Source: Candidatus Coatesiibacteriota bacterium
GTDB lineage: Bacteria; RBG-13-66-14; B26-G2; JAUVZD01
DNA: 64,000 nucleotides
Reading direction: 5' to 3'
Assembly (NCBI GenBank): GCA_030602715.1
Contig: JAUVZD010000006.1
Coordinates: forward strand, 62,001-126,000
Below, one piece after another: positions 3,348 through 49,723 of the stretch; positions within the stretch are counted from its first letter, which is position 1, and each line of letters begins with the position of its first letter. The notes below the pieces were generated by a model. It was not told where the DNA came from. It did no database searches and worked only from the letters and a program-made list of their open reading frames with translations. The translations under genes were made by a program, and so were the position numbers.

Positions 3348-3797
3348 ATGAACTACGAATTCATAGGGCATTATCGTCATTCAATTGACAGCAACGGGCG
3401 CTTGATGGTCCCCAAGAAATTCCGTCAGAACCTGGACGGGGAGATTCTCACCCAGTATTATATGACCCAGGGGTTGGACGGTTGTATCTACATCTTCCCT
3501 CCCGACGAGTGGAAGAAGTTCCAGCGCCAGGTCTATAAGAACCCGGTCAAAAGCCGTGAGGACCGCATCCTGAAACGCTTCTTCTTCTATAATGCGGTTA
3601 CAGTTAAGACTGACTCCATGGGTCGCATCACCATACCCCAGCACCTGAAGGACTACGCCGCCCTTGAAGGAGAGGTGGTGTTAGCCGGCTTCGTCTCCCA
3701 CATTGAGGTGTGGAACCTGGAGAAGTGGGAAGAATTCTCCCAGATTATGAACGATGAGGAGAAGGTCAATCAGCGCCTTATGGAACTGGGCTTCTGA
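3348..3797 (+). CDS. mraZ: Transcriptional regulator MraZ
   Basis: A 149-residue protein with two swapped-hairpin AbrB-type domains, each with a DxxGR core: IDSNGRLMVPKKFR near residue 15 and TDSMGRITIPQHL near residue 88. MraZ forms a ring-shaped oligomer that binds repeats upstream of its own gene and represses the dcw operon. It is the first gene of that operon here, directly behind the four-repeat site. Its TGA overlaps the ATG of rsmH (TGATG). The ribosome site is weak (AAAAAGAG). Confidence 0.97.
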   Translation: MNYEFIGHYRHSIDSNGRLMVPKKFRQNLDGEILTQYYMTQGLDGCIYIFPPDEWKKFQRQVYKNPVKSREDRILKRFFFYNAVTVKTDSMGRITIPQHLKDYAALEGEVVLAGFVSHIEVWNLEKWEEFSQIMNDEEKVNQRLMELGF

Positions 3798-4678
3798 TGA
3801 CCTCCATACATATTCCAGTGATGCTTTCGGAGGTGCTGGACCTGATAAAGCCCCAAGCAGGAAAGACCTACATAGACGTCACCCTGGGTGGAGGAGGACA
3901 CACCAAAGCGCTCCTTGAGGCTTCCGCCCCCACAGGTAGGGTATTTGCCCTGGATTGGGATGCAGGGACTATTGAATCCGCAGAAGCACAGTTGGGGAGA
4001 ACTTATTCCAGATTGACATTGATTGAGGGGAACTTTGCCGACATTGGCGAGCTGGTCGGCGAGAGTGCCGACGGTATCCTCTTTGATTTGGGCTTATCCT
4101 CCGACCAGTTGGCGGATATGGAGAGGGGTTTCAGCTTCACTTCCGATTCATTGCCGGATATGCGCATGAGCCCCAAGGGTCGCCCGGCATATCAGCTTCT
4201 GCAAAAAGGCGGGGAGGAAGAGATAGCCGATGTGCTCTACGAATACGGCGGGGAGAGGCTCTCTCGGCGGATTGCCAGGGCGATAGTCTCCGCCGGCAAG
4301 CGGGGTGAGGAGCTTTCCGCCAAGAGGCTCGCCTCTCTGGTCGCAAAATGCTATCGCCCCGGCAGACATCGCATCCATCCCGCGACCCGCACTTTTCTTG
4401 CTTTGCGCATCTGGGCTAACGATGAGCTCACCAACCTGAAGGCGGGTCTGGAGGGTGCTTGCGGTTTGCTCAATCTTAGGGGAAGGCTCCTGGTCATCTC
4501 CTATCACAGCCTGGAGGACGGCTTGGTCAAGCGCTACTTTCGGGGGTTGGCTGGAAAGGAAAGCGGAGGGAGATTTGAGCTACTCACTAAAAAGCCCCTC
4601 AAGCCTACTCCAGATGAGGTGAGGGAGAACCCCAGGGCTCGCTCGGCAAGGCTACGGGTGATTGAGAGGGTGGCATAA
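3797..4678 (+). CDS. rsmH: 16S rRNA (cytosine-1402-N4)-methyltransferase
   Basis: SAM-dependent methyltransferase (formerly MraW), 293 residues, that modifies C1402 in the ribosomal decoding centre. N-terminal HIPVMLSEVLDLI, the SAM loop DVTLGGGGHTKALLE, the GILFDLGLSSDQLAD signature and C-terminal ISYHSLEDGLVKRYFR are all diagnostic. It has the usual second position in the dcw cluster, with 1-nt coupling to mraZ and a 1-nt gap to ftsL. Confidence 0.98.
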   Translation: MTSIHIPVMLSEVLDLIKPQAGKTYIDVTLGGGGHTKALLEASAPTGRVFALDWDAGTIESAEAQLGRTYSRLTLIEGNFADIGELVGESADGILFDLGLSSDQLADMERGFSFTSDSLPDMRMSPKGRPAYQLLQKGGEEEIADVLYEYGGERLSRRIARAIVSAGKRGEELSAKRLASLVAKCYRPGRHRIHPATRTFLALRIWANDELTNLKAGLEGACGLLNLRGRLLVISYHSLEDGLVKRYFRGLAGKESGGRFELLTKKPLKPTPDEVRENPRARSARLRVIERVA

Positions 4679-26781: not shown

Positions 26782-26819
26782 GCAGGCGACCCCGCCAAAG
26801 GCGGGGAATCCTCGCCTGC
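26782..26819. repeat. Nested palindrome with CCCCGCC/GGCGGGG core
   Basis: Outer arms GCAGGCGA (26782-26789) and TCGCCTGC (26812-26819) enclose inner arms CCCCGCC (26790-26796) and GGCGGGG (26800-26806) with loop AAA. The inner core recurs at 29256, 29623 and 49687. No T run follows, so it does not look like a plain terminator. Confidence 0.8.
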
Positions 26820-26922: not shown

Positions 26923-28023
26923 CTATTTATCTTTTTTTCTAGGCTCACGATTATCACAACCAGAAATACATTTTTCTATGTCATTTAATCCAATTCCTCC
27001 ATTCCCAATCTGACAACACATAGAATGTTTAACGAATTCTGGGCCCTGGAAACTCCTTGTGATTATTACATTAATGTGAAAGTTCTTGCAATTTACTTCA
27101 TCATGAATTTTAGATAATTCACATTTTTTACATACATCTGTGCTTATAACATTTGTCTCACCTGGAATTCTAAAATTATCACGATACTCAGCTTTTTCAC
27201 ATACTAAATCATCTTTTCTTTCATACCTATACGGACAATAAGAAACTTCTCTTTTGATTTTTTCTTTATCGTATGAATAATATTTTGACCTTTTAACTTC
27301 ATGATACTTATACCAATCATCCGGGTCATGTCTTAAAAAAGATAGTAATGTTCCCTTTAAAAATTTTTCTTTTTTAATTCTATATAAATCAATTGGACCA
27401 TCATAAAAATATGCTTGTTTTTCCGCTTGTAAAGACAAAGCTCTTTCCCAAATATATGTTAGCCACACAATTGCCTCGTTATAATTTCTAAATTTCTCTC
27501 CTTTAATATTCATTTTTTGATTCAATGCCAAAACTTCCTCGTTTATAAAATTTGTGTAGCCAATTGCTTTTACGTGATTAAAACCTTCTGATAAATCTGG
27601 AGTTATTTGACAATCGTAATGTCTCAAATTATTGTTATATTTACGTTTTCTTCCACTAATATAAAATCTTTTATTTTCTCTATCATATCCGCAATGCACA
27701 ATATGAACAACATCATCTAAAGGTTCTTCCGGAAAGGTTTCTGAAAATACAATATCAAATCGTGATGTTTGAATAGATAAACTTATAGTATTAGAAAAAT
27801 ATTTATCACCATATCTTTCCAGTATACGTTCTCTTGTATTTTCAATATGTTTGTCTATGTTTTTTCCACTCCAAGATGATAAACCTAATGTTGCAATAAC
27901 ATGGTTATCAGACCATTCATAAATTTTTTCACCTTTCTCATAGGTTCCATCACTATTTGAAATTAGTCTATCACTTGTAACAATTAATTCTTCCTCTGTT
28001 AAAACAGTGATAACTAATGTCAT
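26923..28023 (-). CDS. Orphan Ntn-hydrolase (proteasome beta/HslV-like) with cysteine-rich C-terminus
   Basis: A 366-residue protein, strongly AT-rich compared with its surroundings. The N-terminus reads M-T-LVITVLTEEELIVTSDR, then GEKIYEW and HVIATLG. Counting from Thr2 as residue 1 gives Thr1, Asp17 (SDR) and Lys32, with a glycine near 46. This is nearly the Thr1/Asp17/Lys33/Gly47 pattern of proteasome beta subunits and HslV. The last 110 residues are cysteine-rich (CPYRYERKDDLVC, CKKC, CC, CISGC) and could bind zinc or an Fe-S cluster. It follows the type IIG RM gene by 3 nt, so the two are co-translated. Function is unknown; peptidase activity is inferred from residues only. Confidence 0.7.
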   Translation of the reverse strand: MTLVITVLTEEELIVTSDRLISNSDGTYEKGEKIYEWSDNHVIATLGLSSWSGKNIDKHIENTRERILERYGDKYFSNTISLSIQTSRFDIVFSETFPEEPLDDVVHIVHCGYDRENKRFYISGRKRKYNNNLRHYDCQITPDLSEGFNHVKAIGYTNFINEEVLALNQKMNIKGEKFRNYNEAIVWLTYIWERALSLQAEKQAYFYDGPIDLYRIKKEKFLKGTLLSFLRHDPDDWYKYHEVKRSKYYSYDKEKIKREVSYCPYRYERKDDLVCEKAEYRDNFRIPGETNVISTDVCKKCELSKIHDEVNCKNFHINVIITRSFQGPEFVKHSMCCQIGNGGIGLNDIEKCISGCDNREPRKKDK

Positions 28024-28026
28024 CTT

Positions 28027-30921
28027 TTAATCCACCCCCTCCACCACCCTTATCTCCTCCTCCGTCAGCCCATACAGCTCATAGACTAGAGCGTCAATCT
28101 TTTTATCGGTCTTCTTTATGGCGCGCTCCAGGCGGGTGCGGTCGGCGTCGCTCTTCACACCCGCAAGCCGTTCGTGGAGAGTGAGCATCTCCTCCACCAG
28201 CCCCACCATTCGGTCGTGTAGCTTCACATCATCTGGGTTTGTGAAGTCTATTGAGCGGATGGGGATAGAATGAATTTCATACGTTGAAACAGTAGCAGTT
28301 CGATAATAGAAACCATACCAGAAATTTATCATCTTTGAATTTAATATGCCAGTTATGTATTTCACATTTATATCATCTGGCACATTTTTTGATACATAAC
28401 AAGTATCAAGCGCAAAAAACTGTTCATTATCATATCCAGCGATAATATTCCTACCACTCCTCCCCTGCAAAATTATTTTTTCATTAACCAAAAATAGTGA
28501 TTTTGTGTGAGTTAAGCAACCAACCTTCTCCTTCATCAAATCTGGTCTATACCATATCCAAAGCCCTTTATAGTTAAAATAATATCTTTCAATATCCCTT
28601 CCCCTTAGCAATTTATAACAATCATCATTTTTTTTCTCATTCAATACAAATTTATTATCATTTGAAGTTTTTACTGCCCTTGTAAATTTTATAAGGTCTC
28701 CCAATTTATTATGCATTTCTATCTTACTAAGAACTTTATCCAATTTTTCGTCAAGCTCTAGAATAAACATATTCCTTTCAATTTCTCCAATTCTTTCCTG
28801 TGAAATATTATTTTCTTCTTCTGCTACTCCATTTTCATCCAGTGATTTTACCGATATCACATTACCCTTCCTCTTTTTTCTATTTAAGACCAAAATTATT
28901 GTTTCAACTGTTGCTTCTTTGAAAGTGCCCAAAGGCATCGGAACAAGTTCATAGATGGAAGTTTTTTCTAGCAATAATTTTCTTAACTTATCAAAACTTA
29001 CTGTTGTTAGCCAGGTCGAAGATATTATGTAACCTAAATATCCATAAGGCTTCAATAAATCATTTACTATCAATTCAATGAAAAAAGAGTAAAGGTCACT
29101 CTTATTTTTGTAGATTTTATACTTTTTCTTCAAATAATTTCTCGTTCTTGATTCTATGTTAAAAATATTCACATACGGTGGATTTCCTATAACCGCATCA
29201 AACCCCGCATGTTGCGGGGCAGGACCCGCATGTTGCGGGGCAGGACCCCCCCCGCCCCCGCCATAGGCGGGGCGGGGCTTCATTATCCCCTCAAACTCGT
29301 CCTCCCAGTCAAAGGTGTTCACCCGCCTCTCCTCTGAAAGTGTTCGCTCGAATAACTCACCCTGCTTATCACGGACGAAGTCCCAGTAGTCGGAACCTAT
29401 CAGTGAGTTCCCGCACTTCACATTGCGGTGCAGGGGCGGCAGAAGGGCGGTCTTTATCAGAAACTCAACATTGGTATCCTCAAGCACTTTCAAATATAGA
29501 CTCATTATCGTAACCTCAACAGCAGAGGGGTCTATGTCCACCCCATGTATGTTATTGACGAGTATCTTGCCCTTCTCCTTTGCGGTCAGTTTCCACCTCT
29601 CCGTCTCTTTATCATACCAGCACCCCGCCAAGGCGGGGCCTATGCCCTTCCGTATCTTATCCGGGTTTTCGTTGTAATAGTCCTCGTGCCAGTCAATCAG
29701 TGTCTGGAACGCCCCCAGCAGGAAACTACCGCTACCGCAGGCGGGGTCAAGGATTTTCAGGTTCGCCACCGCCCTGGGGGTCTTGCACTTCTTCAAGAGT
29801 TCCCCGACCGTATTCTCCACGATGTAGTCCACGATGTATTTCGGCGTGTAATATACTCCTCTCGCCTTCCGAACCTCCGGCTTCTTCTCAACCTTCGCCC
29901 GGTGTGCGGGGGTGAGCCGTATGGTTGAGCCCAGAAACCGCTCATAGATGGTGCCCAGCATTTCAACGCCTATCTTATTGAACTGGTAGGGAGACTTGGG
30001 GTAGTAGAGGGACTCTATGAATTGCCTAACCAGGTCATCGTCTATGATTAGGTTCTCTGATAGGGGGTGTTTTTCAAATAGTTGCCCGTTGTAGTGGGGG
30101 TCAAGGTATCTGAACTTGTCCACCACATACTGATAGAGCGGTTTTTCTTTCTCATCAGACCAGCGATTGAGGGCGTCCCTCAGCAGTTGGACGGACTCTA
30201 TCCCCCTGTCCTCAATAACTCTTATGAAGACCATCCTGTCCAGAATTCGCTGGACCGCCTCGTTTATCAGGTATTCGTCGTTGAGGTGGGGGTTGCGGAG
30301 TGCTATCACCTTTGCGAAATCCTCCCGCCACTCGGTCAGGCTCTCAAAGAACTTAACATCCAGCGCCTCCTTGTTCCGCACTCTTCTGGACTTCGGTATC
30401 AGTTCAACCAGGGACCCACCCTCAACCGCACTGCGTGAGAACATCTCATATATGTCGTCCCACCTGTCAAGGTAGTCCGCATAAGAGAGGTCGTATTTTT
30501 TGATGAGCCCTCTGGCGGGGTTATCGTAGTCGGGCTCAAGCCCGGTGTCATATAGGCGGAAGCGTCCGAAGTTGGTCAGGACGCCCAGGGGTGCGGGGAG
30601 GTTGTATCCGTATAATTTTGTCTGGAAGATGTAGTCGCTGTTGGTGAGTTTCTTATTGATGTTCTTGGTCTCAACTATGAACTGCGGTTTGTTGTTTAGT
30701 AGAAAGCAGTAGTCAGCTGATTTAGTGCTCTCCCTTATGTGAACTCTTTTTTCAACCGATACCTCGCTGGGGTTGCGGACATTCCAGCCGAGTTCCTCAA
30801 AGAAGGGGTTTATGAATGACTGCTTGAGTTGCGCCTCGTCAAAACTATCGGGAACCCTCCCCGATGTGAGGGTCTCGTAATATTCAACTAACTTCGCTAT
30901 TTTATCCGGTGTTTCCTGCAT
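28027..30921 (-). CDS. Type IIG restriction-modification enzyme (Eco57I-like)
   Basis: A 964-residue single-chain restriction endonuclease and adenine methyltransferase. The N-terminus has a PD-(D/E)xK pattern D70...E84-T-K86 (SADYCFLL..FIVETKN). The methylase domain has motif I DPACGSGSF (392-400), GVDIDPSAVE and motif IV NPPY (580-583). A target-recognition region (about 600-890) with RGRDIERYY and GLWIWYRPDLMKEK follows, then a C-terminal coiled coil. The recognition region is much more AT-rich than the rest, suggesting exchange. Palindromes are inserted in frame at residues 548-573 and near 429. No ribosome site precedes the ATG. Confidence 0.92.
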   Translation of the reverse strand: MQETPDKIAKLVEYYETLTSGRVPDSFDEAQLKQSFINPFFEELGWNVRNPSEVSVEKRVHIRESTKSADYCFLLNNKPQFIVETKNINKKLTNSDYIFQTKLYGYNLPAPLGVLTNFGRFRLYDTGLEPDYDNPARGLIKKYDLSYADYLDRWDDIYEMFSRSAVEGGSLVELIPKSRRVRNKEALDVKFFESLTEWREDFAKVIALRNPHLNDEYLINEAVQRILDRMVFIRVIEDRGIESVQLLRDALNRWSDEKEKPLYQYVVDKFRYLDPHYNGQLFEKHPLSENLIIDDDLVRQFIESLYYPKSPYQFNKIGVEMLGTIYERFLGSTIRLTPAHRAKVEKKPEVRKARGVYYTPKYIVDYIVENTVGELLKKCKTPRAVANLKILDPACGSGSFLLGAFQTLIDWHEDYYNENPDKIRKGIGPALAGCWYDKETERWKLTAKEKGKILVNNIHGVDIDPSAVEVTIMSLYLKVLEDTNVEFLIKTALLPPLHRNVKCGNSLIGSDYWDFVRDKQGELFERTLSEERRVNTFDWEDEFEGIMKPRPAYGGGGGGPAPQHAGPAPQHAGFDAVIGNPPYVNIFNIESRTRNYLKKKYKIYKNKSDLYSFFIELIVNDLLKPYGYLGYIISSTWLTTVSFDKLRKLLLEKTSIYELVPMPLGTFKEATVETIILVLNRKKRKGNVISVKSLDENGVAEEENNISQERIGEIERNMFILELDEKLDKVLSKIEMHNKLGDLIKFTRAVKTSNDNKFVLNEKKNDDCYKLLRGRDIERYYFNYKGLWIWYRPDLMKEKVGCLTHTKSLFLVNEKIILQGRSGRNIIAGYDNEQFFALDTCYVSKNVPDDINVKYITGILNSKMINFWYGFYYRTATVSTYEIHSIPIRSIDFTNPDDVKLHDRMVGLVEEMLTLHERLAGVKSDADRTRLERAIKKTDKKIDALVYELYGLTEEEIRVVEGVD
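29203..29272. repeat. Array of three small palindromes inside the RM gene
   Basis: Three hairpins back to back: CCCCGCA-TGT-TGCGGGG (29203-29219), CCCGCA-TGT-TGCGGG (29225-29239) and CCCCGCC-ATA-GGCGGGG (29256-29272). The first two also form a direct repeat including GCAGGACCC. Read on the minus strand they encode a Gly/Pro/Ala/Gln-rich insert just before the methylase NPPY motif, in frame. Confidence 0.85.
29623..29638. repeat. Single CCCCGCC/GGCGGGG palindrome in the RM gene
   Basis: CCCCGCC (29623-29629), loop AA, GGCGGGG (29632-29638). It encodes PALAG in the methyltransferase (context GPALAGCWYDKE), in frame between motif I and the catalytic motif. Confidence 0.75.
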
Positions 30922-47719: not shown

Positions 47720-49723
47720 ATGAAAGGGATTTTGACAATTGTGTGCACACTGCCATTCTTGCTCCTGTCGCAGGGACTTTCGGAGGCAATGGCGGTTAAC
47801 TGCTACACCTATTTTTACGATTTGGGTGAACCGCTACCTGTTTTTGGTGATTTTCGGGAGATGGCTAATCTCACCCCCTACGGACCTCCTCCCGACCCGC
47901 AGGTGGGCGATGAATGGTTGTGGTATTGTTGGGACCTTTCTGGATACCCCACCGCCGAACTCAAACCCTGCACCGTCCGGGGTAGGGGCGATAATATCTA
48001 TGTGGTGGTGGAGAACAGCCAGTGGAATGTAAATGTTGACCAGACAGATGTGGACCAGATTTTGCTGTGGTTTGACGATGAAAGTTTGGGGGATTTTCCC
48101 GATGCGGGGGTTTGGGAGCTGAACACTGAAACTTTTGGAGAACCCCCCGACTTTGACGGGCTTTCACGGATTTTCTACATGTATTTAGATTTCAATCAGC
48201 CCGGCGCCGACGGATTTTTCTGGTGGTATGACCAGTATCCCGACGGCACCCAGGACTTTGCCTCAAATGAGTGTGATGTCATCTATTTGAATTGTGCCGT
48301 GGCTGACCCGGGAAGTGCCTATCTTAATGCGGTGGGCGCACATGAGTTTGAGCACCTGATCCATTTCAACTATGATATGTATGAGGATACCTGGGTGGAT
48401 GAGGGCTGTGCCGAATTAGCCATGTGGCTCTTTGGAAATCCGGATTCCATATCCGGCTTCCCCGGCAACCCGGACAACAACCTCACCGAATGGAGTGGGG
48501 AGTGGGCGGACTACATAAAGACCTATCTGTGGACTTTATACATCTATGAGCATTATGGGGAATACATCAGCACCCCCCTGATAAACACTTTGGTCAGCGA
48601 AACCGCTCACGGTGTTACCGGGGTCAACAATGCTCTGGCGGACTGCGGTTATAGCCAGACTATGGCTGATGTTTTCAATGACTGGGTGGTGGCTAATTAT
48701 CTGGATGATACGACTGTGGGCGATGGGCAGTATGGCTACGATACCGAGGACCTGCCCAGCTTCCATTGCGTCAGCACCTGGGACGATTTTCCGGTAGACC
48801 AGAACGGGAGCTTGAACCATTGGGCTGGGGAATACATCATGTTTGTCAGCGGAGGCGTCTGGTTCGGTCTGGGCGGTGATTTCACCGGTCAAAGCTCCGC
48901 CGACTACATACTACGGTCGATAAAGACCTCCGGCGCCAGCCCCACCACAGTTGAGGAGATTGACCTGGATGAAGATAACCACGGAGAGTTCACCTATGAC
49001 GATTTCGGCAGTGACTACGACCAGATATTGCTGGTGCCCATCAATCGCACTTTAGGTGTGGGCACAAACACCTACTCCTATACTGCCGACTCCGGCGAGG
49101 TGGATGTGGAGTTGCTTTATTTCACCGCAGAGCCTGAGGGGGAGGGAGCGATCGTCCTGAAGTGGGGCGTGGAGACGACCGAAGCCGAGGAAATCCTGGG
49201 CTATAACCTTTACCGCAGGGAGATAGAAACAACGCTTGAAAGAAGTAGTCTGGGAGGTAAGACCAAGGATGCTTTGTCCGCTGAATGGATGAAACTGAAC
49301 ACCTATCTGATTGTCGGTGACAGCCCTTACAGCTTCGTTGATGAGGGAGTAGAGGCAAGGACCGCCTACGAATACAAGCTGGAGGCTGTGCTGGAGAGTA
49401 GTGCGGAGACCCTGGGCACCACCCAGGTTACAGCCGGGCTACCACCCGCATCCTTCGCCATCTTAGCCCTATATCCCAATCCGGCAAGTGATACGCTGAC
49501 CTGTCTTTTCGCGGTTCCCGATGCAGGTGCAGTGGAGTTAGCCCTATACGATCTTTCGGGAAGGCTGGTGATTGAGAGACGAATAGAGGTGACCGAACCG
49601 AGCGAGATTAAAGTGTTGTTTGATGTCTCCGGTCTGGCTAGCGGGGTTTATACCCTGCGGGCGTCATCAGGTGGAGCGGAGGTGAGCCCCGCCTGTGGCG
49701 GGGTGGCGGTGGTGATACACTGA
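47720..49723 (+). CDS. Secreted zinc metallopeptidase with type IX sorting tail
   Basis: A 667-residue exported protein. After the signal peptide (MKGILTIVCTLPFLLLSQGLSEA) comes a peptidase-like domain with HEFEH (about 208-212) and a downstream WVDEGCAELA that supplies the third zinc ligand, a gluzincin arrangement. A fibronectin-like module follows (about 470-580: LKWGVETTEAEEILGYNLYR). The end carries a Por-secretion sorting domain (LYPNPASDTLTCLF, LYDLSGRLVIERR, VSGLASGVYTLRAS). A palindrome at 49687-49703 extends the reading frame beyond the normal end of that domain (SPACGGVAVVIH). GTG 47708 is an alternative start. Confidence 0.83.
   Translation: MKGILTIVCTLPFLLLSQGLSEAMAVNCYTYFYDLGEPLPVFGDFREMANLTPYGPPPDPQVGDEWLWYCWDLSGYPTAELKPCTVRGRGDNIYVVVENSQWNVNVDQTDVDQILLWFDDESLGDFPDAGVWELNTETFGEPPDFDGLSRIFYMYLDFNQPGADGFFWWYDQYPDGTQDFASNECDVIYLNCAVADPGSAYLNAVGAHEFEHLIHFNYDMYEDTWVDEGCAELAMWLFGNPDSISGFPGNPDNNLTEWSGEWADYIKTYLWTLYIYEHYGEYISTPLINTLVSETAHGVTGVNNALADCGYSQTMADVFNDWVVANYLDDTTVGDGQYGYDTEDLPSFHCVSTWDDFPVDQNGSLNHWAGEYIMFVSGGVWFGLGGDFTGQSSADYILRSIKTSGASPTTVEEIDLDEDNHGEFTYDDFGSDYDQILLVPINRTLGVGTNTYSYTADSGEVDVELLYFTAEPEGEGAIVLKWGVETTEAEEILGYNLYRREIETTLERSSLGGKTKDALSAEWMKLNTYLIVGDSPYSFVDEGVEARTAYEYKLEAVLESSAETLGTTQVTAGLPPASFAILALYPNPASDTLTCLFAVPDAGAVELALYDLSGRLVIERRIEVTEPSEIKVLFDVSGLASGVYTLRASSGGAEVSPACGGVAVVIH
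49687..49703. repeat. CCCCGCC/GGCGGGG palindrome at the 3' end of the peptidase gene
   Basis: CCCCGCC-TGT-GGCGGGG, encoding PACGG near the C-terminus. It has the same core as the palindromes at 26790, 29256 and 29623. Confidence 0.75.

Follow-up and report, generated by a model that had tools for sequence, protein, structure and literature searches.

Fuchs, Alva and Lupas (2021; PMC8665760) described 22 new families of proteasome-like proteins that lack propeptides and have no known AAA+ partner. Their functions are unknown and their gene context gave no hint, and proteasome-like homologues also occur in phages (PMC8665760). Connectase, another member of the superfamily, is a ligase that has been described from certain methanogens only (PMC8665760). 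Here we analysed a window of 64,000 nucleotides, i.e. the whole stretch of DNA to which the positions below refer, from a Candidatus Coatesiibacteriota bacterium (contig JAUVZD010000006.1), in which a proteasome-like gene lies directly behind a type IIG restriction-modification (RM) gene. We favour, with a probability of about 0.62, the reading that its product is a stand-alone hydrolase with an N-terminal threonine, closest to the group II PMI-like proteins, whose gene is a recently acquired AT-rich cargo in a variable slot behind the RM gene.

The RM gene and its neighbour

Both genes are located on the minus strand. The RM gene (28027..30921) encodes a protein of 964 aa with an HSDR_N-type nuclease containing ETK, an Eco57I/N6 methyltransferase containing NPPY and a TaqI_C specificity domain. 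It is followed, after a gap of 3 nt between its stop codon and the next ATG (28024..28026, minus strand), by the gene of a 366-aa N-terminal nucleophile (Ntn) hydrolase of the proteasome superfamily (26923..28023), which starts with Met-Thr and has Thr2 as the predicted nucleophile. The junction reads GTGGATTAAAAGATGACA, where the stop codon TAA and the triplet AAG precede ATG ACA. A preliminary description of the locus had given the same spacing, which was borne out by the reading frame coordinates and by the junction sequence. The 3-nt gap suggests that the two genes are co-transcribed and that their translation is coupled. The products of the ten genes flanking the pair comprise a helicase, radical SAM, ferredoxin/FMN, YfhO, PMT, LptD and similar proteins. 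An unfoldase of the HslU or Mpa type was not found among them, in agreement with the earlier remark that no ATPase partner is nearby, and the HslV of this genome is encoded on a different contig.

The assignment of the RM gene to type IIG was also confirmed. Nuclease, N6 methyltransferase and specificity domain were matched in a single chain, the ETK and NPPY motifs were present, and the protein matched REase_MTase_IIG of PADLOC with 3.4e-156. The GC3 of the gene is about 0.56-0.76 upstream of the specificity part, 0.25-0.35 in the specificity part (28250..29160, minus strand) and 0.68 at the 3' end, so that the gene is a GC mosaic whose specificity domain was probably exchanged. In the Ntn gene GC3 is 0.12-0.26, and the flanking genes mostly have 53-63% GC. 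The low GC3 of both the Ntn gene and the specificity part of the RM gene fits a recent acquisition from an AT-rich donor.

GC-rich palindromes of the form CCCCGCC..GGCGGGG were observed at 26790-26806, 29256-29277, 29623-29638 and 49687-49703, with 0 expected from shuffles. Two of the four fall within the RM gene, where they are translated in frame. Directly before GFDAVIGNPPY the RM protein carries an insert (PRPAYGGGGGGPAPQHAGPAPQHA) of about 22 residues that nearly all of 20 relatives lack. At this site a paralogue from the same genome (L051) has PRPPADGGA, and another relative (L042) has a short insert too. The palindromes resemble repetitive elements that have inserted into coding sequence.

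Sequence and predicted fold of the Ntn protein

After removal of the initiator methionine the Ntn protein has Thr1, Asp17, Lys32 and Gly46, exactly the residues first claimed for it, and no propeptide. The lysine and the glycine come one residue early compared with the Lys33/Gly47 frame in mature numbering. The core of the protein (residues 1-245; 27289..28023, minus strand) aligns with columns conserved in 58 relatives, which in precursor numbering correspond to Thr2, Asp18, Lys33, Gly47, G112-Y113, G155, A184 and DGPID (208-212). The C-terminal tail (residues 255-366 and the stop codon; 26923..27261, minus strand) is rich in cysteines. Of eleven cysteines in the protein (111, 138, 263, 275, 298, 301, 312, 336, 337, 352 and 356), the last 112 residues hold nine, close to the count of about ten in 110 residues made before, and these include a CxxC (298/301) and a CC (336/337). 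The tail may bind a metal, possibly zinc. When it was used as a query, just short weak matches were obtained, and such a tail was found nowhere else in this analysis. Three of the matched ORFs lie beside methyltransferase genes (L199, L205 and L206); they do not share the cysteine pattern and were judged to be chance matches.

The Ntn protein gave no match up to E 10 in Pfam, NCBIfam and PADLOC, nor to any described anti-phage system family of PADLOC 2.0 at this threshold. No match to PDB sequences was obtained with phmmer, and one weak match was seen in PHROG (E 0.46). Single-sequence searches of viral, genome, plasmid and phage collections recovered no close relatives, and none turned up in two samples of 386 partly overlapping genomes. 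Nothing was found with the alignments A1 and A3, in which artificial query variants served as probes, or when a relative from the same phylum was searched against viral contigs and plasmids. Weak matches to parts of a 1444-aa and a 766-aa frame (L003 and L004; E 0.002-0.01) were judged to be chance.

Since the standard libraries were silent on this protein, a profile of relatives was built. It was seeded with tandem proteasome-like genes from two genomes of the same phylum, which led to a set of 15 diverse proteins, and then to 15 viral loci and 80 loci from named genomes. The larger profile comprised 103 relatives. The relatives were collected partly by their QDAID motif. The tandem pairs (L069, 313-1863; L071, 1207-2823) show about 48-50% identity within the pair and stay just under the cut-off of PF00227. 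The viral loci (L103-L117) are QDAID-bearing proteasome-like genes from 15 contigs in the collection of viral sequences.

When the single Ntn sequence was compared with the 15-protein profile by hhalign, a score of 82.5% was obtained, as against 1.9% for the best of 60 shuffles, 0.1% for the reversed sequence and 3.7% for the best of 38 other proteins of the window. With the 103 relatives the score, a probability, was 93.9-94.8%, with an E of 5e-8 to 1.5e-7 for a single comparison. The best of 30 shuffles reached 1.1% with this profile, and over all profiles tested shuffles reached at most 2.4%. Of the 2,699 ORFs in the window and in 50 RM-related loci, a family HMM gave the top rank to the Ntn reading frame, with an E that was modest (0.0003-0.002). 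Among the 58 aligned relatives, serine or threonine at T2, D18 and K33 were each conserved in 57, G47 in 52, G112 in 57, G155 in all 58 and the GPID residues in 46 to 57. Judged from these alignments, the family match is solid and places the Ntn protein in the proteasome superfamily. Within the superfamily the protein stands apart as a divergent outlier, without a demonstrable place in a named cluster. Conserved Gly12 is changed to Glu and the Ser after Asp17 to Arg, and where helix H4 of the relatives starts with QDAID, the Ntn protein has NEAIV at 182-186.

The fold was predicted with AlphaFold2. With 58 relatives in the alignment, residues 1-245 were modelled with a pLDDT of 76.5 and a pTM of 0.75 as the alpha-beta-beta-alpha sandwich of Ntn hydrolases, whereas the model made without relatives had a pLDDT of 33 and was useless. 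The evidence from fold and from homology is therefore not fully independent. A Foldseek search with the model, as proposed in the preliminary description, recovered the proteasome fold, with 20S subunits at E 7e-8. In VIA comparisons the model aligned to human 20S over 185 residues (Z 16.6, 3.0 A) and to Anbu over 208 residues (Z 16.3, 3.9 A). Some ten residues lie between the helices 158-170 and 181-202, and a short turn joins the strands 34-38 and 41-47. The protein had been described as a proteasome-like Ntn hydrolase with nearly the catalytic frame of proteasome beta subunits and HslV. The fold and the Thr/Asp/Lys/Gly frame were recovered, whereas kinship to HslV was rejected, as the comparison with a profile of 11 HslV proteins from the same phylum gave 0.1%.

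The slot behind related RM genes

The downstream gene was compared among 20 related RM loci whose flanks covered several kb. It differed from locus to locus or was absent. The slot was occupied by DUF4268 (PADLOC PDC-S11) in L035, DUF3800 in L045, GIY-YIG/DUF4357 (PDC-S14) in L054, a hexapeptide-transferase-like protein in L049 and unknown proteins in L036, L037, L041 and L043. In L044 a gene about 0.5 kb downstream of the RM gene encodes a DUF6575 protein, which matches PD-T4-10_B weakly. The family HMM detected no other proteasome-like ORF in the RM-related loci. Conversely, a search for homologues of the Ntn gene beside Eco57I-like genes had been proposed, and none of 95 loci with proteasome-like relatives has a type IIG RM partner that would repeat the pair. 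Among these 95 loci, only the flanks of L131 and L146 matched the RM protein, the latter weakly. On L131, a contig from Shapirobacteria, the genes concerned lie at 1118-2578 and 3563-4297; about 1 kb separates the proteasome-like gene from a type II methyltransferase gene on the other strand. Clustering of the neighbours around the relatives gave gene families that recur in up to 11 loci; they were taken for synteny within lineages rather than for a partner.

Since the slot genes differ and the pair is not repeated, the position behind the RM gene is best described as a variable cargo slot, partly of defence type, and the pairing as local. A defence role of some kind is plausible for the Ntn protein because the slot of RM relatives holds defence candidates, although some of these are called so by their neighbourhood, an argument that is partly circular. 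In the literature searched, no report of a role for proteasome-like proteins in phage defence was found, and the DefensePredictor main text does not mention such a protein.

The preliminary description had proposed an abortive-infection or RM-safety module. In such a dedicated module the protease would degrade either the RM enzyme or some target in the host upon RM inhibition or DNA damage. The shared strand, the 3-nt spacing and the defence candidates in the slot of RM relatives are consistent with this, and the cysteine tail could sense the redox or metal state. However, the pair was seen in one genome only, and neither the 20 RM relatives nor the 95 loci of proteasome-like relatives repeat it, so this proposal is unlikely. 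It is likewise improbable that the gene encodes an immune effector, namely a threonine protease of the proteasome family whose tail binds metal, which would be exchangeable cargo behind type IIG RM genes and become active once restriction is overcome. Somewhat unlikely is a neutral or decaying passenger, a proteasome-like gene borne by a phage or an island that landed behind the RM gene and has no role there. The very AT-rich gene without close relatives would suit such an origin, and proteasome-like relatives are present in viral contigs and, according to PMC8665760, in phages. Against this stands the intact frame of 366 codons, and the retention of the catalytic frame and the core columns at such great divergence argues for selection on catalysis. 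Catalysis of another kind, by a sequence-specific protein ligase or an amidase instead of a protease, has a precedent in connectase (PMC8665760) and would fit the absence of an unfoldase nearby. The signature insert of connectase between S3 and S4 was not seen in the model and connectase has been described only in some methanogens (PMC8665760), which makes this alternative very unlikely.

For the favoured stand-alone hydrolase, the Ntn gene would be expressed from the same operon as the RM gene, and methionine aminopeptidase would remove the initiator methionine and expose Thr1. The hydroxyl of Thr1, activated by Lys32 and Asp17, would then attack a peptide or amide bond. The cysteine tail may bind zinc and serve, in place of an ATPase, as the module that recognises a substrate or a partner. 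As there is no unfoldase, the substrates would be unfolded, small or specifically recruited. The action of the Ntn protein would not depend on the RM enzyme, and its gene would most likely belong to a set of several interchangeable cargo genes of defence type. The locus offers a testable lead, a single case so far, for a proteasome homologue in phage defence.

Comparison with known systems

The RM gene of the window matches the type IIG enzymes of the Eco57I/TaqI_C type throughout and differs from them by its in-frame GC-rich palindromic inserts and its AT-rich specificity part. With HslV and the 20S beta subunits the Ntn protein shares the fold and the catalytic frame, but it does not match PF00227, and HslU or a proteasomal ATPase is absent nearby. 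Anbu has the same fold and also lacks a propeptide; here the Ntn protein differs by its cysteine-rich tail and showed no sequence match to the solved structures (phmmer, PDB).

The collected relatives probably correspond to the group II 'PMI-like' proteins of Fuchs et al. (2021). This type, which occurs in prokaryotes and phages and has no known AAA+ partner, shares with the Ntn protein the proteasome fold, the Met-Ser/Thr start without a propeptide, the Thr/Ser1-Asp17-Lys33-Gly47 frame and the GGPID strand. In contrast, the identity in the alignment is just 12-23%, and the Ntn protein lacks the H3/H4 insertion, the QDAID motif and the conserved Gly12 and Ser19. Because this insertion is typical of PMI-2 to PMI-6, the Ntn protein was not filed under these families. 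Group II PMI-like proteins are probably its closest described counterparts, from which it is further set apart by an extra cysteine-rich tail of 112 residues.
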